Positions 12,343 to 33,392 of a DNA stretch of 37,183 nt are shown here, piece by piece. The notes under the pieces are model-generated. The model was given only the letters and a program-made list of their open reading frames with translations, was not told the DNA's origin and did no database searches. Location of the stretch: NCBI GenBank assembly GCA_020723385.1, contig DYIZ01000054.1, forward strand, positions 1 to 37,183, read 5' to 3'. This stretch comes from Candidatus Aquidulcis sp. (GTDB taxonomy: Bacteria; Chloroflexota; Anaerolineae; Anaerolineales; UBA4823). The translations under genes and the position numbers were made by a program. The stretch's first letter is position 1. Each line of letters opens with the position of its first letter.

Positions 12343-13581
12343 ATGCGCATCCTCTACCTCTCCCAATACTTCCCCCCCGAAGCTGGAGCCACCCAAACCC
12401 GCGCCCACGAAATGGCGCGCAACTGGGTGCGGCTTGGCCACGCTGTGACCATGATCGGCGAAGTGCCCAACCACCCATCGGGAATCATCCCGACCGAGTA
12501 CCGCGGCAAGCTGTGGGAGCGCAAACCCCTCGATGGGATTGACGTAATCCGCGTGTGGGTGAAGGCCTCGCCGGTCAAGAATTTCCGCAACCGGATGCTG
12601 TTCTACTTGACCTTCATGGTCAACGCCGCGCTGGCCGGGCTGTTTCTGGCGCGCGGCAAATTCGACCTGATCTATGCCTCGTCGCCGCCGCTGTTCGTGG
12701 GCGGGGCGGCGCTGGCGATCAGCTTCCTGCGCCGGATTCCGCTCGTCTTCGAGGTGCGCGACCTTTGGCCAGAGAGCGCCGTGGCGCTCGGGGAATTGTC
12801 CAGCCCGAAGGCGGTGGCGCTGGCGACAAAGCTCGAAGTCGCCTGTTACCGCCGCGCCCGCAAGATCATCGTTGTCACCGAGGGGATTCAGGATAAGCTG
12901 CTCGCACGCGGCTACCCGGCTGACAAAGTGATCCTGGTTCCAAATGGTGCCAACATCGCCATGTTTCGCTTCGATCCGGGGAAGCGCGCCCAGACGCGTG
13001 CCGAATGGGGCATTGCGGAGGAAAAATTCGTGGCGATCTACGCCGGGATTCACGGCGTCGCCCAGGGGTTGGAGACGCTCGTCGAGGCGGCGCGCCGCCT
13101 GCAATCCGAGGCGGGCATACATTTCCTCCTCGTCGGCGAAGGCCCCAAAAAGGCCGAGATCGCCGCGCTCGTCGCCGAGTACGGCCTGACCAACGTCACC
13201 CTGATGCCCGAACAGCCGCGCGAAGCCATGCCTACGCTGCTCTCCGCCGCCGATGCTGCCATCATCCCGCTCAAAAAGCTCGATTTGTTCAAAGGCGCTC
13301 TGCCCTCCAAGCTGTTCGACGCCTGGGCCTGCGAGCGGCCAGTGCTGCTCTCGGTGGATGGTGAAGCTCGGAAAGTAATGGAGGCCGCCCAGGGTGGCCT
13401 GTTCGTCCCGCCCGAAGACCCCGCCGCCCTGGCCGAAGCCATCCTGTCTCTCGAAGCCGATCCCGATTTGCGCGCCGAGATGGGCCGCCGGGGGAGGGCA
13501 TTCACCGAGCAAAACTACTCCCGCCAGGCGCTGGCCGAGAGATTAGCGGGAATACTGGATTCGGTGAGCAGTGAGCAGTAA
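12343..13581 (+). CDS. GT4 glycosyltransferase, WbuB-like
   Basis: This 412-residue protein opens with MRILYLSQYFPPEAGATQTR and has EVPNHPSGII, VFEVRDLWPESAVALGEL, VVTEGIQDKL, VPNGANIAMF and LPSKLFDAWACERPVLL. This set matches the WbuB/FucNAc-transferase-like branch of GT4, which adds an N-acetylated amino sugar to a lipid-linked acceptor in O-antigen synthesis. That fits the amino-sugar genes in this locus. The donor-site glutamate of the branch (LFEY) is Asp here (LFDA). The start ATG follows an 8-nt repeat tract rather than a ribosome site. Confidence 0.88.
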   Translation: MRILYLSQYFPPEAGATQTRAHEMARNWVRLGHAVTMIGEVPNHPSGIIPTEYRGKLWERKPLDGIDVIRVWVKASPVKNFRNRMLFYLTFMVNAALAGLFLARGKFDLIYASSPPLFVGGAALAISFLRRIPLVFEVRDLWPESAVALGELSSPKAVALATKLEVACYRRARKIIVVTEGIQDKLLARGYPADKVILVPNGANIAMFRFDPGKRAQTRAEWGIAEEKFVAIYAGIHGVAQGLETLVEAARRLQSEAGIHFLLVGEGPKKAEIAALVAEYGLTNVTLMPEQPREAMPTLLSAADAAIIPLKKLDLFKGALPSKLFDAWACERPVLLSVDGEARKVMEAAQGGLFVPPEDPAALAEAILSLEADPDLRAEMGRRGRAFTEQNYSRQALAERLAGILDSVSSEQ

Positions 13582-13628
13582 TCAGTGATCAGTAACCTGG
13601 CCACCTGACAGGTTACGAAACAGGCACT

Positions 13629-13687: not shown

Positions 13688-13701
13688 GATGCTTCTCTCG
13701 A

Positions 13702-13749
13702 AACTATCCAACCATCAAACTATCAGATCATCAGACTATCAAACTATGA
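13702..13749 (+). repeat. Six 8-nt tandem repeats ending in the wecB start codon
   Basis: Six consecutive 8-nt units with consensus RACTATCA run from 13702 to 13749 without a gap. The last unit, AACTATGA, supplies the ATG at 13746. No ribosome site is visible within it. Confidence 0.85.
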
Positions 13750-14825
13750 AACTCATTCACATCGTCGGCGCACGACCCAACTTCATGAAAGCCGCCCCGC
13801 TGCTGCGGGCGCTGGCTGTTTACCCGCACGTTCAAAACCTGCTCGTCCACACCGGGCAGCACTACGACGAGAACATGTCCGATGTGTTCTTCGACGATCT
13901 CCACTTGCCCCGCCCCGACATCAACCTGGGCGTCGGCTCCGGCTCACACGCTGAACAAACTGCCAATGTCATGCTGCGCTTCGAGCCGGTGCTGCTCGAA
14001 CACAAACCTGATGGGGTTGTCGTGTTTGGCGATGTCAACTCGACCATCGCCTGCGCGCTGGTGGCAGCCAAGCTGCATATCCCCGTGGTGCATGTCGAAG
14101 CCGGGGTGCGCAGCTTCGACCGGATGATGCCGGAGGAGATCAACCGCGTGTTGACCGACGCCCTGGCTGATTTGTGTTTCACCCCGTCACGCGAGGCCAA
14201 CGACAATCTGCGCCGGGAGGGGATTGCAGAGGAGAAAATTCATTTCGCCGGGAATGTGATGGTGGATGCCCTGCTCGAGGCCGCCGCCATCGCCAGCCAA
14301 CGGGAAAGCTGGACCCGCTGGAATCTGCACCCCCAGGGGTACGCGGTCACCACCCTGCACCGCGCCGCCAACGTGGACGACCCGGCCACACTGGCGAGAT
14401 TACTGTCAACTCTCTCTATACTGGCTATACGCATACCAATCGTGTTCCCCATCCACCCACGCACAGCCAAACGGCTGGTCGAATCTGGCATCCCCACCGA
14501 TGCGCCAGGACTCATCCTGACTGAGCCGCTCGGTTACCTCGATTTCCTGTGCCTGATGTCGCAAGCCAAGCTGGTGCTGAGCGACTCGGGCGGCATCCAA
14601 TCCGAGACTTCCATGCTCGGCGTGCCCTGCCTGACGCTGCGCGCCAACACCGAATGGGGCGTGACCCTCACCGAGGGCACCAACATCCTGGTCGGAGACG
14701 ATCCGGAGCGTATCCTGGCCGAAGCCGACAAAATCTTGCGCGGCGAAAGCCGCCAGGGGCGCCGCCCCGAATTCTGGGATGGGCAGGCGGCACAACGCAT
14801 CGCCAAAGTGCTGGCGAAGCGCTAA
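13746..14825 (+). CDS. wecB: UDP-N-acetylglucosamine 2-epimerase (non-hydrolysing)
   Basis: This 359-residue protein matches WecB/MnaA, which interconverts UDP-GlcNAc and UDP-ManNAc. Visible motifs are GARPNFMKAAPL (8-19), HTGQHYDENM (35-44), GDVNST (95-100), HVEAGVRS (116-123), PEEINR (129-134), SDSGGIQSE and the C-terminal TEWGVT...GTN pattern. Residues D96, E118 and E131 fall where the catalytic acids of the E. coli enzyme lie. It is the last gene of the glycan cluster and gives ManNAc-type precursors. The ATG at 13746 was chosen because the family begins MKLIHIVGARPN; an in-frame upstream ATG at 13689 lies in repeats. Confidence 0.93.
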   Translation: MKLIHIVGARPNFMKAAPLLRALAVYPHVQNLLVHTGQHYDENMSDVFFDDLHLPRPDINLGVGSGSHAEQTANVMLRFEPVLLEHKPDGVVVFGDVNSTIACALVAAKLHIPVVHVEAGVRSFDRMMPEEINRVLTDALADLCFTPSREANDNLRREGIAEEKIHFAGNVMVDALLEAAAIASQRESWTRWNLHPQGYAVTTLHRAANVDDPATLARLLSTLSILAIRIPIVFPIHPRTAKRLVESGIPTDAPGLILTEPLGYLDFLCLMSQAKLVLSDSGGIQSETSMLGVPCLTLRANTEWGVTLTEGTNILVGDDPERILAEADKILRGESRQGRRPEFWDGQAAQRIAKVLAKR

Positions 14826-26020: not shown

Positions 26021-26686
26021 TCACACATTCAACTCGTTCATATCCCCCGTCATCATATACACCACCTGCTCGGCGATGTTCGTGGAGCGGTCGGCAATGC
26101 GCTCCAGGTTGTGCGCCACCCACATCAGGTAGGTGCAGCGCTGTACCGCGTCGGGTTTCTTGACCATGAACTTGAGCAGCCGGTCAATCGTGGCGTGATA
26201 GAGCTTGTCCAGCCTGGCGTCCCGCCCGGCGATCTCGCGCGCCCACTCCGGGTCGCGCTTGAGGAATGACTGCACCACGTCAGCCAGCATCTGGCGGCTC
26301 AGCTCGCCCATCTTGGGGAACTTCTTCAGCGTTTTGAGCAGCGGTTCGTCTTCCATCAGCAGCACGATGCGCGCAATCCCGGCGGCGTGATCGCCCATGC
26401 GCTCCAACTCGACCACGATGTGCATCACCGCCACCACCGAGCGCAGATCGCTGGCGGCGGGCTGACGGGTGGCGATAAGCACGATACAGGCCTCCTCGAT
26501 CTCGAAGCGCAGCCGGTTGACATCCCCATCGTTGGCGACGACCGCCTCCGCCGTCAGGGAATCCTGCTCGAGCAGGGCTGTCATCGCCCGCTGGATGGCC
26601 CAATCCACCATCTGGCTCAGATGCACCAGCTTGTCGCAAATATCGTCGAATTCACGGTCGAACGCAGCGCGCAGACTTTGGGGCAT
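26021..26686 (-). CDS. phoU: PhoU, phosphate signalling regulator
   Basis: This 221-residue helical protein is PhoU, which in other bacteria dampens Pst transport and Pho two-component signalling at the membrane and protects against excess phosphate uptake. Both three-helix bundles show the metal-binding pattern: ELERMGDHAAGIAR at residues 93-106 and NLERIADRSTNIAE at 193-206. Length fits the family. It lies directly downstream of pstB on the - strand with a 1-nt gap, so the two are cotranscribed. Its last codons have a near copy at 24857-24889. Confidence 0.95.
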   Translation of the reverse strand: MPQSLRAAFDREFDDICDKLVHLSQMVDWAIQRAMTALLEQDSLTAEAVVANDGDVNRLRFEIEEACIVLIATRQPAASDLRSVVAVMHIVVELERMGDHAAGIARIVLLMEDEPLLKTLKKFPKMGELSRQMLADVVQSFLKRDPEWAREIAGRDARLDKLYHATIDRLLKFMVKKPDAVQRCTYLMWVAHNLERIADRSTNIAEQVVYMMTGDMNELNV

Positions 26687-26687
26687 A

Positions 26688-27458
26688 TCATCCCATCCTT
26701 CCGGTAATGTAATCTTCGGTCAACTGCTGTTCGGGGCGGGTGAACATGCGCTGGGTGGGCGAGAACTCCACCAGCTCGCCGAGCCAGAACAGCCCGGTCT
26801 CGTCCGAAACCCGCGCCGCCTGCTGCATGTTGTGGGTAACGATCACGATGGTGTACTGCGCTTTCAGCTCGGCGATCAGCTCCTCGATTTCCAACGTCGC
26901 AATCGGGTCGAGCGCCGAGCACGGCTCGTCCATCAAAATGACCTCCGGCTTCACCGCCAACATGCGGGCGATGCACAACCGCTGCTGCTCGCCCAGCGCC
27001 AGGCTTTGCGCGTCCTCGTCGAGATGATCTTTCACCACGTCCCACAGCGCGGCCTGCGTCAGGCTGCGCTCGACGATTTCATCGAGGTCGGCGCGCTGCC
27101 TTGCTAACCCGACCGCCCGCGGCCCAAACACCACGTTATCGAAGATCGTCTGCGGGAACGGGTTGGGCTTCTGGAATACCATCCCCACCCGCTGGCGTAA
27201 ATGCGCCAGGTCAACCTCCGGCGCGTAGATGTCCATCCCCTCCAGCAGGATCTGTCCGGCGACCCGCGTCCCCGGAATGGTGTCGTTCATCCGGTTGAGA
27301 CAGCGCAAAAAGGTGGATTTCCCGCATCCCGAGGGGCCGATCAGCGCCGTCACCTGCCTGCGGCGGATGTCCAGATTGATCTTGCTCAAGGCCAGCGAGG
27401 GGCCGTAGAAAAAATCGAGGTCTCTGACCTGAATGATGGGGGGTTCGGCGTCGGGCAT
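26688..27458 (-). CDS. pstB: Phosphate ABC transporter ATPase PstB (copy 1, altered signature)
   Basis: This 256-residue protein is PstB, the ATPase of the high-affinity phosphate importer. Walker [10 protein letters not shown] (41-49), Q-loop VFQKPNPFP with Gln96, Walker B ILMDEP (Glu178), the PstB-specific CSALDPIAT, and His209 (VTHN) are intact. The ABC signature, normally LSGGQ, reads LALGE (153-157), so the serine that contacts the partner's ATP is gone. The rest of the helix (QQRLCIAR) is normal. It is divergent from pstS and cotranscribed with phoU. A TAAAAT (27465-27470 on the + coordinates) lies only 6 nt before the ATG, suggesting a leaderless message. The second PstB (30622) has the opposite set of motif changes. 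Confidence 0.92.
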
Positions 27459-27539
27459 GGCTGGATTTTAACCGATTTCGGTGGTTGCGTGTTATTGTAC
27501 TGTGTTCTTTTGGAATTGAACCTGAACATTTCGTGCAAA

Positions 27540-27640
27540 GATTTTGAAACACAAAGGTGACAAAGGGCTTCACAAAGGTTACGAAGTTTTTATAATTTTC
27601 TCTTTGTCCCCTTTGTGTTGCCCTTTCGTGGCCTTCGTGT
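27540..27640. repeat. Spacer dyad of the CAAAGG/CCTTTG type, copy 2
   Basis: CAAAGG occurs at 27552, 27561 and 27573 (steps 9 and 12), and CTTTGT-type units at 27602, 27611 and 27623 (steps 9 and 12) face it. Bases 27540-27557 are the exact reverse complement of 14961-14978. It fills the divergent pstB/pstS region, so regulators of both operons must bind in or beside it; no clear Pho box was recognised. Confidence 0.75.
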
Positions 27641-27647
27641 TTTAGCT

Positions 27648-27675
27648 TTTACGACTTGCCCGGGTAGGGTATAAT
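27648..27675 (+). promoter_or_regulatory. pstS promoter, probably leaderless
   Basis: TTTACG (27648-27653) and TATAAT (27670-27675) have a 16-nt spacing. The pstS ATG at 27686 comes 10 nt after the -10, so transcription would start about 4 nt before or at the start codon. No ribosome site is present. Confidence 0.65.
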
Positions 27676-27685
27676 CCGCCGCGAG

Positions 27686-28573
27686 ATGAAAACTGCCCGC
27701 CTGCTGTTGTGCATCCTGTCACTGATTGCCCTGAGCGGCTGCGCCAATGCAACCGTTCCGGCAGGTCAACCCACCCCTGCAACCGCCGCCTACATCGAGA
27801 ATAAAGGCTCCGACACCATCGTCAACCTGGCATTGGCCTGGGCCGAAAGCTACCAGGCGCTGCACCCCGAGGTGCGCATCTCCGTCACCGGGGGCGGCAG
27901 CGGTACTGGCATCGCCGCGCTGATCAACGGCACGGTGGATCTCGCCAACGCCTCGCGCCAGATCAAAGCCGAAGAAACCGCCGACGCCCTGGCGAACGGC
28001 ATCACCCCGGTGGAGCACACCATCGCCCGCGACGCCATCGCCGTCATCGTCAACCCCCAAAACCCGATCCAGCAGCTCACCCTCCAGCAAATCTCCGACA
28101 TCTACAGCGGCAAGATTGACAACTGGCTGGAGGTCGGCGGCGAAGACCGCCCCATCGTGCGCCTGTCGCGTGAGACCAACTCTGGCACGCACGTCTATTT
28201 TCTCGAGCAGGTGCTGCGCCTGGGGCAGTCGGATAACAAGACTCTGTTTGCCGCCAATACCCTGCTGCTGCCCTCCTCGGAAGGCATCACCGCCGAAGTG
28301 CGTGACAATCCCAATGCCATCGGATACGATGGGCTGGGATATGTGACGCCGGATGTCAAAGTGATCGCCGTGGCAAAAGACGCCAGCAGCCCCTACATAT
28401 TCCCCTCGGCAGAGAGCGTCAACGCCGGGCAGTATCCCATCTCGCGTGACCTGTACATGTACACTGCTGGCGAGCCGACCGGTGCAGTGAAAGCGTACCT
28501 GGATTGGATCGTCGGGCCGGAGGCGCAGGAAATCGTTACCGAGTTAGGCTTCGTTCCAATCAAAAGTCCGTAA
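27686..28573 (+). CDS. pstS: Phosphate-binding lipoprotein PstS
   Basis: This 295-residue protein is the substrate-binding part of the phosphate importer. It has a lipobox (ALSGC, Cys19), so it is anchored to the membrane, then the PstS-type pattern: NKGSDTIVNLALAWAE, TGGGSGTGIAALINGTVDLA, ASRQIK, HTIARDAIAVIVNP, LTLQQISDIYSGKI and SRETNSGTHVYF. The Ser and Gly loops hold phosphate in this family. It is the first gene of the pstS-pstC-pstA-pstB operon. Its stop codon TAA (28571-28573) lies inside the first unit of the heptamer repeat that follows. Confidence 0.93.
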   Translation: MKTARLLLCILSLIALSGCANATVPAGQPTPATAAYIENKGSDTIVNLALAWAESYQALHPEVRISVTGGGSGTGIAALINGTVDLANASRQIKAEETADALANGITPVEHTIARDAIAVIVNPQNPIQQLTLQQISDIYSGKIDNWLEVGGEDRPIVRLSRETNSGTHVYFLEQVLRLGQSDNKTLFAANTLLLPSSEGITAEVRDNPNAIGYDGLGYVTPDVKVIAVAKDASSPYIFPSAESVNAGQYPISRDLYMYTAGEPTGAVKAYLDWIVGPEAQEIVTELGFVPIKSP

Positions 28574-28630
28574 AACGTGAGACGTAATTCGTAAGGTGCC
28601 CCTTACGTTTTACACATTACGTTTTACGAA
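28569..28630. repeat. Heptamer repeats as inverted arms between pstS and pstC
   Basis: CGTRA occurs at 28569, 28576, 28583 and 28590, exactly 7 nt apart. TTACR occurs at 28603, 28610, 28617 and 28624, also 7 nt apart, and is its reverse complement. The element can form a hairpin or bind a dimeric protein. A related copy lies at 30553-30598. Confidence 0.85.
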
Positions 28631-28658
28631 TTTTCTTCCCTAATAACCTCACCCTCCC

Positions 28659-29552
28659 ATGAAATCCACTTCCACCTGGCCCGAGTTTCTCATCACCCGC
28701 CTGATCAAAGCCTCGGGCTATTCGGCCATCGTATTCGTGGCGCTGATTTTCTATTTCCTGCTCAACGAAGGCGCGCCGGCGCTCTTCAAAACGCCGCTCT
28801 CCTCGTTACTCAGCACGCGCTGGTACCCCATCGAGAATTATTTTGGCCTGCTGCCGCTCATCAGCGGCTCGCTCATCGTCACACTGGGCGCGGCGCTGGT
28901 GGCGGTGCCGTTTGGCATCGGGACGGCGGTTTTTATGTCCGAGATTGCGCCGCGCTGGCTGCGGGAGATTCTCAAACCGCTCGTGGAAGTGCTGGGCGGG
29001 CTGCCATCGGTGGTGCTCGGCTTCCTGGGGATTCTGCTGCTGGCGCCGTTCCTGCGCCGGGCGCTCGACCTGCCCACGGGACTCTCGGCCCTGGCGGGGG
29101 CGCTGCTCCTGGGGGGCATCGCCGTCCCGACGGTGGTCTCGGTGGCCGAAGACGCCCTCGACTCGGTGCCGCGTTCCTACCGTGACGCGGCCCTCGCCCT
29201 CGGCGCAACCCGCTGGCAGACCATCTGGCGGGTGACGCTGCCCGCCGCCCGCTCCGGCGTGTTGACAGCAGTCATGCTCGGCATTGGCCGCGCTATCGGT
29301 GAGACAATGGCGGTGATGATGGTCACCGGCAACGCGGCGGTGATGCCCTCCCTGTTGGCGCTGTTCCACCCGGCCCGTACAATGACCGCCACCATCGCCG
29401 CCGAGATGGGCGAGGTGGCCAATGGCAGCCTGCATTATCACGTGCTGTTCTTCATCGGGATCGTGCTGTTCCTCATCTCGCTGGCGATCAACGTCACCGC
29501 CTCGGCAGTGGTGTTCCGCCAAAAGAAACGCGCAGAGAGAATTCTGTCATGA
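28659..29552 (+). CDS. pstC: Phosphate ABC transporter permease PstC
   Basis: This 297-residue protein is one of the two permeases of the importer, with about six membrane helices. It has FGLLPLISGSLIVTLGAALV near the N-terminus of the transport domain, EVLGGLPSVVLGFLG, SVPRSYRDAALALGATRWQT (EAA loop contacting PstB) and IGRAIGETMAVMMVTGNA, all typical of PstC. It follows pstS after the heptamer repeat; no ribosome site is visible before the ATG at 28659. Confidence 0.93.
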   Translation: MKSTSTWPEFLITRLIKASGYSAIVFVALIFYFLLNEGAPALFKTPLSSLLSTRWYPIENYFGLLPLISGSLIVTLGAALVAVPFGIGTAVFMSEIAPRWLREILKPLVEVLGGLPSVVLGFLGILLLAPFLRRALDLPTGLSALAGALLLGGIAVPTVVSVAEDALDSVPRSYRDAALALGATRWQTIWRVTLPAARSGVLTAVMLGIGRAIGETMAVMMVTGNAAVMPSLLALFHPARTMTATIAAEMGEVANGSLHYHVLFFIGIVLFLISLAINVTASAVVFRQKKRAERILS

Positions 29553-29583
29553 TCAGTTTTTCCTGTCGCTCATAAGTTTTGCC

Positions 29584-29667
29584 CGTCACTACGAGCGTTT
29601 TTTGCGAAGCAGTCTCCCCGTATGTGAGATTGCTTCGGGCCGGAAAATACCGGCCATCGCAATGACA
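29584..29667. repeat. Dispersed GAAGCAATCTC-type palindrome between pstC and pstA
   Basis: GAAGCAGTCTC (29606-29616) faces GAGATTGCTTC (29626-29636), its reverse complement with one mismatch. Outer arms CGTCACTACGAG and CATCGCAATGACA extend the dyad. This resembles a GTCATTGCGAGG...GAAGCAATCTC palindrome that is dispersed in many bacterial genomes. Confidence 0.7.
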
Positions 29668-29677
29668 CTGGAATAAT

Positions 29678-30544
29678 ATGGCTACCCAATCCTCCTCCGC
29701 CTCCCGCCTCGCCACACAGCGCATCGGCTTCAGTCTGATGACGCTGATGACGCTGCTCACGGTGACGCCGATATTACTGGTTGTGGCGTACATCGTCTGG
29801 CAGGGCGCGCCGGCGATATCGGTCGAATTCCTGACCGGCTTCCCACGCGAGGGGATGAAAGCGGGCGGTATCCTGCCCGCCATCGTGGGGACGTTCTACC
29901 TGACGCTGGGTACAGCCGTCTTTGCCGTGCCGCTGGGGTTGGGCGCGGCCATCTATCTCTCGGAATACGCACCCGATAACCGCTGGACGCGGCTCATCCG
30001 GCTGGCGATCATCAACCTGGCGGGGATTCCCTCGGTGGTGTACGGGTTGTTCGGGCTGGGGCTGTTCGTGCTGTTCCTGCGCTTCGGCACCAGCATTTTG
30101 GCCGCATCGCTCACCCTTTCGATCATGACCCTGCCGGTCATCATCAGCACCGCCGAGGAGGCCCTGCGGGCTGTGCCTCAGTCATTCCGGGTGGTGAGCA
30201 TTTCACTTGGGGCCACACGCTGGCAGACCATCCGGCGCATCGTGCTGCCCCAGGCGCTGCCGGGCATTCTCACCGGGGTGATCCTCGGGCTGGAACGCGC
30301 CGCCGGGGAAACCGCCCCCATTCTCTTCACGGGCGCAGCTTTCTTCTTGCCGCGCCTGCCCCACTCGCCGCTCGACGCCACGATGGCGCTGCCTTATCAT
30401 CTTTTCGTCATCTCGACCCAGGTTCCGGGGATGCCGGTCGAAATCCAGTACGGCACGGCGCTGGTGCTGCTGGTTTTCGTGCTGGGGATGAATGTGATCG
30501 CGTCGGTGATCCGGTCGAGGGCGAGGGCGAAACGACAATGGTGA
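29678..30544 (+). CDS. pstA: Phosphate ABC transporter permease PstA
   Basis: This 288-residue protein is the second permease, with about six membrane helices. PstA features are GGILPAIVGTFYLTLGTAVF, IYLSEYAP, NLAGIPSVVYGLFGLGLFV, VPQSFRVVSISLGATRWQTI (EAA loop), and LERAAGETAPILFTGAAFF. The LGATRWQTI core of the loop is identical in PstC and PstA, as expected if both dock on PstB-type ATPases. It lies 125 nt after pstC, the gap being a dispersed palindrome. Confidence 0.93.
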   Translation: MATQSSSASRLATQRIGFSLMTLMTLLTVTPILLVVAYIVWQGAPAISVEFLTGFPREGMKAGGILPAIVGTFYLTLGTAVFAVPLGLGAAIYLSEYAPDNRWTRLIRLAIINLAGIPSVVYGLFGLGLFVLFLRFGTSILAASLTLSIMTLPVIISTAEEALRAVPQSFRVVSISLGATRWQTIRRIVLPQALPGILTGVILGLERAAGETAPILFTGAAFFLPRLPHSPLDATMALPYHLFVISTQVPGMPVEIQYGTALVLLVFVLGMNVIASVIRSRARAKRQW

Positions 30545-30552
30545 ACGCAAAA

Positions 30553-30598
30553 CGTAATTCGTAAAACGTAAGGGGCATTTTACGGATTACGCTTTACG
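30553..30598. repeat. Heptamer repeats as inverted arms between pstA and the second pstB
   Basis: CGTAA lies at 30553, 30560 and 30567, and TTACG at 30580, 30587 and 30594. Both arms step by exactly 7 nt. ACGTAATTCGTAA is shared with 28582-28594. The dyad fills almost the entire gap between pstA and the next start codon. Confidence 0.85.
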
Positions 30599-30621
30599 TT
30601 TTGCGAGCGTCTGAAATCATT

Positions 30622-31377
30622 ATGAACAAGATTACGATTGACCACCTTTTTCTCACCTACTCCGACGGCAAAGAGTCGCTGCGCGACATCAACCTGGGGA
30701 TCGCCGAGCACGCCATCACGGTGCTGTTTGGCCCGGCGGGGGGCGGAAAATCTACGCTGCTGCGGGTGCTCAATCGCTTGAACGATCTGGCCGATGTGAC
30801 GCTGGTTGCCGGGAAGGTGCTGCTCGATGGGGAGAATATCCTCGACCCGAAGACAGACGTGATCCGGCTGCGGCGCAAGGTGGGGATGGTGTTCGCCCGC
30901 CCGGTGACGCTGCCGCTCTCGATTCGCGGCAACCTGACCTATGGGCTGGAATTGGCGGGCGTGCGCGACAAATCCCGGCTGGACGAGGCGGTGGAACGCA
31001 GCCTGACTCAGGCCGCGCTGTGGGAGGAAGTGAAGGAGCGCCTGGACGACCCGGCGGTGGCGCTTTCCGGCGGGCAGCAGCAGCGGCTGTGCCTGGCGCG
31101 CTCGCTGGCGCTGGAACCCGAGGTCATCCTGCTCGACGAGCCAACCTCCGGCCTCGACCCGATCTCGACCGGCAAGGTGGAGGCCTCGCTGCAAGAGTTG
31201 AAGCAGCACTACACGATTGTGCTTGTGCCGCATTCGGTGCAGCAGGCCGCCCGCACCGCCGATTACGCCGCATTCTTCTTGCAGGGGGAGTTGATCGAAT
31301 ACGCGCCCGGAAAAGACATTTTCATTCACCCGAAAAACAAGCGCACCGAGGATTACGTCGAGGGGCGGTTTGGTTAA
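30622..31377 (+). CDS. pstB: Second PstB-like ATPase with altered Q-loop
   Basis: This 251-residue protein is a PstB paralogue. Walker A is GPAGGGKST (37-45), the signature is a perfect LSGGQ (148-152) followed by QQRLCLAR, Walker B is ILLDEP (Glu173), the D-loop is SGLDP and His204 is present (VPHS). The Q-loop, normally VFQKP, reads VFARP, so the usual Gln is Ala92. The frame could extend to TTG 30601, but the ATG at 30622 fits the family length. It closes the pstSCA operon. Its motif changes complement those of the - strand PstB: together they would make one normal and one degenerate ATP site. Confidence 0.88.
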   Translation: MNKITIDHLFLTYSDGKESLRDINLGIAEHAITVLFGPAGGGKSTLLRVLNRLNDLADVTLVAGKVLLDGENILDPKTDVIRLRRKVGMVFARPVTLPLSIRGNLTYGLELAGVRDKSRLDEAVERSLTQAALWEEVKERLDDPAVALSGGQQQRLCLARSLALEPEVILLDEPTSGLDPISTGKVEASLQELKQHYTIVLVPHSVQQAARTADYAAFFLQGELIEYAPGKDIFIHPKNKRTEDYVEGRFG

Positions 31378-31400
31378 TATACCGTGGCTATTTTTGAAAA

Positions 31401-31502
31401 GCGGGCTTCGCCCGCCAGGTAAACCGATTTTGAGTGGTTTTGCCGCACAAGTTCGTGCGGCAAAACCACTCAAAATCGGTATTTTCGGCTCCCGAAGGGA
31501 GC
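31401..31502. repeat. Cluster of three hairpins after the second pstB
   Basis: GCGGGC/GCCCGC (31401-31415, TTC loop), a perfect 26-bp stem with arms 31423-31448 and 31455-31480 (6-nt loop), and GCTCCC/GGGAGC (31488-31502, GAA loop) follow one another. The 26-bp stem is free of mismatches, which is unusual for a chance or ageing structure. Confidence 0.85.
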
Positions 31503-31535
31503 GATTCAGAATCATTGATGTCGCGGGATACTAAC

Positions 31536-31567
31536 AAAACCAGGTTTCTTTGAGAAACCTGGTTTTT
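31536..31567. terminator. Symmetric intrinsic terminator
   Basis: AAAACCAGGTTTCT (31536-31549) pairs perfectly with AGAAACCTGGTTTT (31553-31566) around a TTG loop, with A-rich and T-rich flanks. It can work in the + direction to end the pst operon, and possibly in both directions. Confidence 0.75.
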
Positions 31568-31583
31568 CATTGGTGGAAATCTG

Positions 31584-31612
31584 TTGCAATTCACCCCTTA
31601 TTCCCGTACAAT
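31584..31612 (+). promoter_or_regulatory. Promoter of the ppk2 pair
   Basis: TTGCAA (31584-31589) and TACAAT (31607-31612) are separated by exactly 17 nt, a good sigma70-type pair. It follows the terminator and gives a leader of about 39 nt before the ATG at 31658, which has an AGGGAG ribosome site. Confidence 0.75.
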
Positions 31613-31657
31613 ATCATCATCCTGTTTCATTCGTCTTCACCCAAGGGAGCGACAATC

Positions 31658-32617
31658 ATGCTCGAAAAAATAGACCTCACCCAAAAGGTTGATAAGCCCA
31701 CCTATAAAAAACTGATGTCCATGCTCTCGGAGCGGCTGTACATGGTGCAGAAAGCCTCCTGGGACGCGGGCATCCCGGTGGTGATCCTGTTCGAGGGCTG
31801 GGATGCATCCGGGAAAGGAACATCCATTCAAACCCTCACCAGCCCGCTCGACCCGCGCGGCTTCAAGCTGTATCCTATCCGGGCGGCGCGCACCTATGAG
31901 AAGAAACGCCCCTGGCTGTGGCGCTTCTGGCTGAAGCTGCCAGCGCGCGGCGAATGGGCCATCTTCGACCGCTCGTGGTACGGGCGGGTGGCCGTCGAGC
32001 GAGTGGAGAACATCATCCCCGAGGCCGAATGGCGGCGCGGCTACCGTGACATCGTAGATTTCGAGCGCACTATCGCCGATGACGGGCATCTCATCATCAA
32101 ATTCTTCCTGCACATCAGCAAGCGCGAGCAGAAGAAGCGTTTCGAAAAGCTCATCAAAGACCCCCTCACCGCCTGGCACGTGGCGCCCGAGGATTGGGAG
32201 CACCACCGCCATTACGACGATTGGCTGCAAGCCTACGAAGAGATGTTCGAGCAGACCGAGACCGAGTGGGGGCCGTGGACCATCGTGGAAGCCACCGACC
32301 GCCGCCACACGCAGGCCAAAATCTACCTGACCGTCATCAATGCCCTCGAAGAGCGGCTGGGGTTGGAGCGGACGGTGGTCAAGCTCGACCAACATGCCGA
32401 GACGGAAGATGACGCCGCCGCCGAGAATGACGATGATGACTCAACCGCCGGGGGCGAGGCAACCCCGGCGGAGGCCGCGCCGCCCGAGGCGGAGGCAAGG
32501 CCATCCGGCGAGCCGAAAGAGAAGAAATCCAAATCGAAAAAGTCCGCCAAAAAATCCAAAGACCGCGCCGAGCGGCTAGAAGAAGCCATGGAGGTGTCCG
32601 ATGTTAGGGACAGTTGA
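31658..32617 (+). CDS. ppk2: Polyphosphate kinase 2 family protein with charged tail
   Basis: This 319-residue protein has the PPK2 core (about 1-245): Walker A GWDASGKG (47-54), FDRSWYGRV (103-111) as Walker B, and a DWEHHRHYDDW lid region (179-189). PPK2 enzymes move phosphate between polyphosphate and nucleotides; class I-III choice between ADP/GDP and AMP cannot be told. The C-terminal 75 residues are low-complexity: an acidic stretch (249-261), Ala/Pro/Glu, then a Ser/Lys run (285-302). The tail resembles the acidic-serine-lysine segments known to bind polyphosphate in other proteins (inference). The next PPK2 gene starts 17 nt before its end. Confidence 0.9.
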   Translation: MLEKIDLTQKVDKPTYKKLMSMLSERLYMVQKASWDAGIPVVILFEGWDASGKGTSIQTLTSPLDPRGFKLYPIRAARTYEKKRPWLWRFWLKLPARGEWAIFDRSWYGRVAVERVENIIPEAEWRRGYRDIVDFERTIADDGHLIIKFFLHISKREQKKRFEKLIKDPLTAWHVAPEDWEHHRHYDDWLQAYEEMFEQTETEWGPWTIVEATDRRHTQAKIYLTVINALEERLGLERTVVKLDQHAETEDDAAAENDDDDSTAGGEATPAEAAPPEAEARPSGEPKEKKSKSKKSAKKSKDRAERLEEAMEVSDVRDS

Positions 32618-33392
32618 CCTGAGCCTGACCTTGACCGAGGAAGAATATGACAGCCAGTTGATCATCCTGCAAGTCGCGCTGGCGAAACTGGCATTCCAGG
32701 TTTATTTGCAGCAGCGGCCGGTCGTCATGGTTTTCGAGGGCTGGGACGCGGCCGGCAAGGGCGGCGTCATCCGCCGGGTGACCGGGAAGATTGACCCGCG
32801 CGGCTACGTGGTCTATCCGATTGCCGCGCCCGCCGGCGACGACAAGACCCACCATTATCTGTGGCGCTTCTGGCGGCGGCTGCCAGAGGCCGGGCAGATC
32901 GCCATCTTCGACCGTTCGTGGTACGGGCGGGTGATGGTCGAGCGCATCGAGGGCTTCTGCACCGAGCCGGAGTGGAAGCGCGCCTACCGTGAGATCAACC
33001 AGTTCGAGCGGCAGTTGGTGGATTACGGCGTGATCCTGTACAAATTCTGGCTGCACATCAGCCCGGAGGAGCAATTGCGCCGCTTCGAGGACCGCTCCGC
33101 CGACAAGCTGCGCAGTTGGAAGCTGACCGACGAGGATTGGCGCAACCGTGAGAAATGGGGCGTGTACGAGGAAGCCGTCAACGAGATGTTGCTCAAGACC
33201 AGCACCGTCTCGGCCCCCTGGACGGTGGTCGAAGGCAACTCGAAGCCCTACGCGCGCATCAAGACCCTGAAAACCATCGTGGACAAGCTGAGCGACGAGC
33301 TGCACTTCGACCCGGAGAAAGATCAAATCGTCGCGCCGGGCGGTGAGAGCAAGCCGAAAGAGAAGAAAGACAAGAAGAAGAAAAAGAAGTAG
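32601..33392 (+). CDS. ppk2: Second polyphosphate kinase 2 family protein
   Basis: This 263-residue protein is a paralogue of the preceding one and lines up with it without gaps over the first half: GWDAAGKG at 47-54 and FDRSWYGRV at 103-111 fall at the same positions. It should use polyphosphate to phosphorylate nucleotides or the reverse. It ends in a Lys-rich run (KPKEKKDKKKKKK), again suited to binding polyphosphate. The ATG at 32601 has a GGAGGTG site inside the previous gene and overlaps it by 17 nt, so translation is coupled. The pair recalls two-domain PPK2 proteins (one polypeptide in some bacteria) split into two genes. Confidence 0.9.
   Translation: MLGTVDLSLTLTEEEYDSQLIILQVALAKLAFQVYLQQRPVVMVFEGWDAAGKGGVIRRVTGKIDPRGYVVYPIAAPAGDDKTHHYLWRFWRRLPEAGQIAIFDRSWYGRVMVERIEGFCTEPEWKRAYREINQFERQLVDYGVILYKFWLHISPEEQLRRFEDRSADKLRSWKLTDEDWRNREKWGVYEEAVNEMLLKTSTVSAPWTVVEGNSKPYARIKTLKTIVDKLSDELHFDPEKDQIVAPGGESKPKEKKDKKKKKK

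Follow-up and report, generated by a model that had tools for sequence, protein, structure and literature searches.

Opposed heptamer arrays between pstS and pstC of a Chloroflexota bacterium are probably one copy of a dispersed 60-bp repeat

The STRR heptamers of cyanobacteria (Calothrix) are short tandem heptamers located in intergenic DNA. In Xanthomonas (unit GGGAATC) and Nostoc (unit GGGGA(T/C)T), heptamers form arrays of about four units that lie mostly in intergenic regions between co-directional genes and near or overlapping a stop codon, with some intragenic arrays in Nostoc, and each Xanthomonas genome carries 70-75 opposed heptamer pairs (PMC4692102). The TAACTGA direct repeats of Beggiatoaceae, Cyanobacteria and Bacteroidetes, which place stops in three frames, are patchily distributed across phyla and in some cases overlap upstream stop codons, have been proposed to be RNA-binding sites (PMC4679880). 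Paired tandem 7- and 8-mers in Geobacter metallireducens were proposed, without a test, to be binding sites of a global regulator (IHF/HU) (PMC2700814), and the palindromic elements of Rickettsia are in-frame insertions in genes for housekeeping proteins (PMC10969869).

The locus described here lies in a window of 37,183 nt, the whole stretch of DNA that was analysed (Candidatus Aquidulcis sp., assembly GCA_020723385.1, contig DYIZ01000054.1). An earlier note on this DNA had reported that, between pstS and pstC, CGTRA repeated four times at exact 7-nt steps faces TTACR repeated four times at the same step, and we found all eight units where it had placed them. The left arm (28569-28594, plus strand) consists of CGTAA at 28569, CGTGA at 28576 and CGTAA at 28583 and 28590, and the right arm (28603-28628, plus strand) of TTACG at 28603, TTACA at 28610 and TTACG at 28617 and 28624; the interval of 28569-28630 that had been given is thus correct at its start, and the units stop at 28628. 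Between the arms lies the loop GGTGCCCC (28595-28602, plus strand), a variant of the loop common to the repeat family (consensus A-R-N-G-C-N-C-C). As had also been noted, the first CGTAA unit includes the stop codon of pstS (TAA, 28571-28573) and the flanking genes are pstS, encoding the phosphate-binding protein (27686-28573, plus strand, TIGR02136), and pstC (28659-29552, plus strand, TIGR02138), both above cut-off when the pst gene names were checked against NCBIfam. The C-terminus of PstS (LGFVPIKSP) is normal and the length of the protein agrees with that of its relatives. The eight-unit opposed pattern matched in 40 of 40 letters, compared to 27 for the best of 40 first-order Markov windows, and the opposed heptamers after pstS are real and far beyond chance.

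Searching the window for three tandem units with up to 3 mismatches yielded nine matches, when 0.75 were expected, and all nine fell into two clusters, the element between pstS and pstC and a second one at 30545-30606. The latter, which the earlier note had overlooked, is another copy of the 60-bp element, located in the pstA-pstB gap (30546-30605) on the minus strand and hence in the opposite orientation; it aligns with the pstS copy across 60 columns, loop included. The segment from pstC to pstA (29678-30544, plus strand, TIGR00974 above cut-off) is thus bracketed by two copies in opposite orientations, and the listed TTG start of the second pstB-like ATPase gene (30601-31377, plus strand; TIGR00972 with E 1e-98 and 330 bits versus a cut-off of 343) overlaps the end of the second copy. 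The pst region as a whole (26021-33392) contains two pstB-like genes, this one and another at 26688-27458 on the minus strand together with phoU (26021-26686), and two adjacent PPK2 genes (31550-32617 and 32601-33392) lie downstream of the second pstB. Elsewhere in the window, a heptamer array of another family (CAGTRAT type; 13564-13593, plus strand) overlaps the stop of the ORF at 12343-13581, and an 8-mer array (ACTATCAA type) occupies 13702-13753 near the start of the ORF at 13689-14825. Rfam models gave no match to the window.

Genome-wide, in 6.43 Mb on 239 contigs, three tandem CGTRA units (CGTRANNCGTRANNCGTRA) matched 148+134 times (282), the opposed two-arm pattern 145+140 times, where one element may yield several matches, and a 26-nt core spanning the loop (CCGTAAARNGCNCCTTACGTTTTACG) 21+25 times (46) at up to 3 mismatches; the control gave 0 matches in each case (a reversed pattern for the three-unit search). 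When 35 distinct copies were aligned, conservation was confined to a body of about 60 bp and did not extend into the flanks. Within the family the arms vary by whole units, from 2 to 9, and the ends are ragged in heptamer steps and carry no fixed terminal repeats. Because the loop that the copies have in common lies outside the heptamer, their sharing of it is best explained by descent from one another. Considering only letters outside the search core, the CGTAA cores are mostly more than 90% conserved on the left side and less so at the right end, and conservation drops to only about half at two linkers (-15/-14 and +26/+27). In one case (L053, 4216-4295) the arrays are nested, an 8-mer array of the ACAGGTAA type lying in the loop between two CGTAA arms.

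Beyond this genome, the matches listed for the opposed CGTAANN pattern fall in named genomes of Chloroflexota (mostly Anaerolineae), Nostocales, Deltaproteobacteria, Poribacteria and a few other groups; each lineage has its own linkers, and some of these matches possibly reflect chance; the cross-phylum counts are lower bounds, from a search pattern that itself fixed the CGTAA letters. The three-unit pattern is missing from most genomes of the bacterium's own family and present in a few genomes from other families of the order. In two genomes (G042 and G052), matches to the reversed control (AATGCNN steps) suggest another heptamer family. Literature searches for the literal sequence CGTAAAACGTAA or for heptanucleotide repeats in Chloroflexi found nothing, and those for intergenic repeats of Anaerolineae found nothing relevant.

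With its tandem 7-nt units above chance, the element is best read as belonging to a known type, the dispersed heptamer repeats of Xanthomonas, cyanobacteria and Beggiatoaceae. Like the STRR arrays, it consists of intergenic tandem heptamers; it differs from them in unit sequence and in its opposed core with a conserved loop. The two convergent arrays near stop codons resemble the Xanthomonas pairs, but the CGTAANN unit lacks a G-tract and hence the capacity to form a G-quadruplex that characterizes those pairs; here, unlike in Xanthomonas and Nostoc, opposed arms are the usual form, the loop is common to the copies and the same genome holds many other unit families (PMC4692102). With the TAACTGA repeats the family has in common the heptamer, stops in all frames and a patchy distribution, and a TAACTGA-type unit (ATCAGTTA) is present in this genome, but the TAACTGA repeats of the Guaymas Beggiatoaceae are direct and lie mostly just before start codons, whereas the CGTRA arrays are opposed and lie at gene ends (PMC4679880). 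The Geobacter metallireducens repeats likewise comprise 7- and 8-mers on opposite strands with variable spacing and several classes per genome, although with other units (PMC2700814). Rickettsia elements, in contrast, are about 150 bp long and have no heptamer period, and whereas they enter genes, the CGTRA family is almost confined to gaps and only its sister families are found in genes (PMC10969869). Less usual is the number of unit families with the same mirror layout in one genome.

The position of the copies relative to genes was assessed in 704 kb of stretches, partly selected around matches, in which a simple home-made hexamer gene caller predicted 591 genes. CGTAA arrays were intergenic in 18 of 19 cases and lay between co-directional genes in 14 of 19, and the core had the same orientation as its co-directional neighbours in six cases and the opposite one in nine. 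Examination of 51 elements gave 48 relations to an upstream stop, in 27 of which an array unit provides the stop (the first unit in 16 cases, the second in five and the third in four), and the stop of pstS inside the first unit is thus typical for the CGTRA family. Every CGTRA unit includes a TAA or TGA and a 7-nt step moves the frame by one, so that three units stop all frames. Only 2 of 25 CGTRA segments lay inside called genes, compared to 37 of 104 for other families (Fisher p 0.007), probably because stops in every frame filter the CGTRA arrays out of genes. The stops are real and explain why the CGTRA family avoids genes and ends them. They are unneeded to account for its spread, and selection for stop codons as the cause of that spread was set aside, 21 of 101 7-mer segments having no stop on either strand.

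CGTRA is one of many such families. In a sequence-blind scan of the same 704 kb, period 7 accounted for 101 segments and period 8, a second size class in the genome, for 28, whereas each of the periods 4, 5, 6, 9, 10, 11 and 13 gave 0-9 segments; a further 56 segments had period 14, which is twice 7. Units include ATCAGTN, CCCCTAT, CAACCTT, GACGGTT and the 8-mer ACAGGTAA, and the other families have their period in common with CGTRA, not their sequence. Of the 101 7-mer segments, 58 had a reverse-complement partner no more than 110 nt away when up to 2 mismatches were allowed, compared to 2 and 14 in two controls. Long contig stretches totalling 467 kb contain about 150 array clusters per Mb, a density that would amount to roughly a thousand 7- and 8-mer arrays across the genome. 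In one instance (L086, 13046-13144) an ACCGTTG array faces a CAGTNAT array, two families around one loop.

Many arrays of the non-CGTRA families are located inside reading frames. In UvrA, 26 extra residues (78 nt) correspond to a CCCCTAT...ATAGGGG array that is in frame and interrupts the alignment to solved UvrA structures, in a variable region that is only a few residues long in most relatives; no target duplication was evident at this one site. LeuRS and PheT have shorter extra in-frame segments at their arrays; in LeuRS (L050, 6092-8923) the array insert comprises residues 238-261. A different repeat-like insert occupies the same UvrA loop in G043 (L345). Residues 383-506 of LeuRS (about 120) do not align to Thermus LeuRS and possibly represent a further insertion, and one called reading frame of 1775 aa (L083, 5649-10973) contains three arrays of three heptamer families.

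We consider it probable that the pst element is one copy of a dispersed opposed-heptamer repeat of about 60 bp and a tolerated passenger between pstS and pstC. Its copies, dozens in number and probably of common descent, consist of CGTAANN units that oppose their own reverse complement across a short loop rich in GC, and they lie beside unrelated genes in either orientation. Such arrays would arise and spread by a putative DNA copying process, with slippage plus hairpin-templated copying as the candidate. Arrays would survive only where they are harmless, at gene ends and in surface loops of proteins, and would subsequently drift. Several observations count against this account: no copying enzyme, copying event or target duplication was seen, the higher conservation of cores than of linkers is unexpected under plain drift from a master copy, strong hairpins are somewhat enriched at the pstS ends of relatives, and the first unit carries 16 of the 25 stops on units 1-3, more than the third that random frames would give, which hints at a preferred site. 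A bolder version, to which we give a rather low probability, is that what is fixed is the period and the mirror layout and not the sequence, one putative copying process for opposed 7- and 8-nt arrays founding many families, some of them cross-phylum, and placing them by preference at stop codons and within the loops of proteins.

The alternative that fares best, although we regard it as unlikely, is tuning by a hairpin, as the earlier note had suggested: the element would be under selection as an mRNA structure that favours PstS over PstC, by protecting the 3' end of pstS mRNA or slowing read-through, and the family would supply ready-made hairpins that are retained where useful. REP elements act in this manner in some E. 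coli operons. The hairpin itself is physically likely: the element (28563-28634, plus strand) has a predicted RNA fold of -30.8 kcal/mol (z = -8.4), would be expected to fold in the mRNA and may alter the stability of the pstS end, and no intrinsic terminator was called on the plus strand at 28563-28634. Among 35 copies, 706 paired cells were counted, compared to a permuted mean of 713, indicating no compensatory change, and most copies have mismatches (T.T and C.T) at two facing positions within the stem. There is thus no sign of selection on pairing at the family level, and an RNA structure under selection was rejected for lack of covariation across copies. Tuning specific to pst is further called into question by the second copy in the pstA-pstB gap and by the occurrence of cores in both orientations (6 versus 9).

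Support for a role at this junction comes from its counterparts in relatives of the same order (49 genomes), which often carry unrelated hairpins between pstS and pstC: G041 has CGTGATA arms, G038 TGCTGAT arms and G052 heptamers, G043 and G142 have palindromes, and G060, G177, G206 and G108 carry other repeats. Across the pstS-pstC gaps of L254-L293, hairpins are unrelated in sequence between species and missing in some congeners; congeners of G043 and others have gaps of 16-23 nt and no hairpin, which counts against the tuning reading. A z below -4 was found at 22% of pstS ends and at 10% of other co-directional junctions, but the rank test gave p 0.09 and the within-genome rank test and the KS test each p 0.11; with gaps of 40-200 nt, strong hairpins were present at 9 of 20 pstS ends and 33 of 157 others (one-sided Fisher p 0.022), in a comparison in which relatives are non-independent and several thresholds were tried. 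The enrichment in relatives is therefore weak and suggestive at best; it leaves room for hairpins that land at a pstS end being kept more often than elsewhere. We see no good sign that the hairpin at this pstS end was selected for phosphate uptake. The genome-wide search, to which the earlier note had itself looked for a decision between a neutral repeat and a regulator of pst, found many copies next to unrelated genes, and with these and the copy in the pstA-pstB gap a pst-specific regulator was rejected as the main reading.

Less probable still is a binding array, in which a protein (nucleoid, IHF/HU-like or CsrA/Csp-like) would recognize CGTAA at 7-nt steps along DNA or RNA throughout the genome. 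The idea of an array for a regulator, likewise raised before, gains from the cores being mostly more than 90% conserved, when two linkers outside the search core are about half conserved, and from the recurrence of the opposed CGTAANN pattern with different linkers in Chloroflexota, Nostocales and Deltaproteobacteria, but the search pattern behind this recurrence had the CGTAA letters fixed. The other families of the genome, moreover, have the same period and a different sequence, and the three-unit pattern is missing from nearly all genomes of the same family. We know of no binder for CGTAA arrays. Precedents have been proposed for Geobacter metallireducens (PMC2700814) and for the TAACTGA repeats as RNA-binding sites (PMC4679880).

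That the element is of the REP/RAYT or MITE type, mobilized by a transposase from another locus of the genome, is very improbable: its defined 60-bp body, dozens of copies and patchy distribution, its sister families inserted in frame and six Y1 transposase matches in the genome would fit, but no such array lies within about 1.5 kb of any Y1 match, the consensus has no GTAG/CGTC tag, and the ragged ends lack fixed terminal repeats. Of the small mobile repeat once proposed for this site, it is the dispersed repeat that is supported, by its many genome copies, and mobility by transposition is at most putative.

Reading the element as a dispersed repeat removes the tempting view of a phosphate-specific switch, which is poorly supported. 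What emerges instead is one bacterium with something like a thousand 7- and 8-mer arrays, most of them in mirrored pairs and some present as in-frame inserts in UvrA, LeuRS and PheT. For annotators this is a caution, since arrays of this kind supply the ends of genes and lengthen proteins. The old question of why a 7-nt unit is so common among bacterial repeats becomes testable in one genome.
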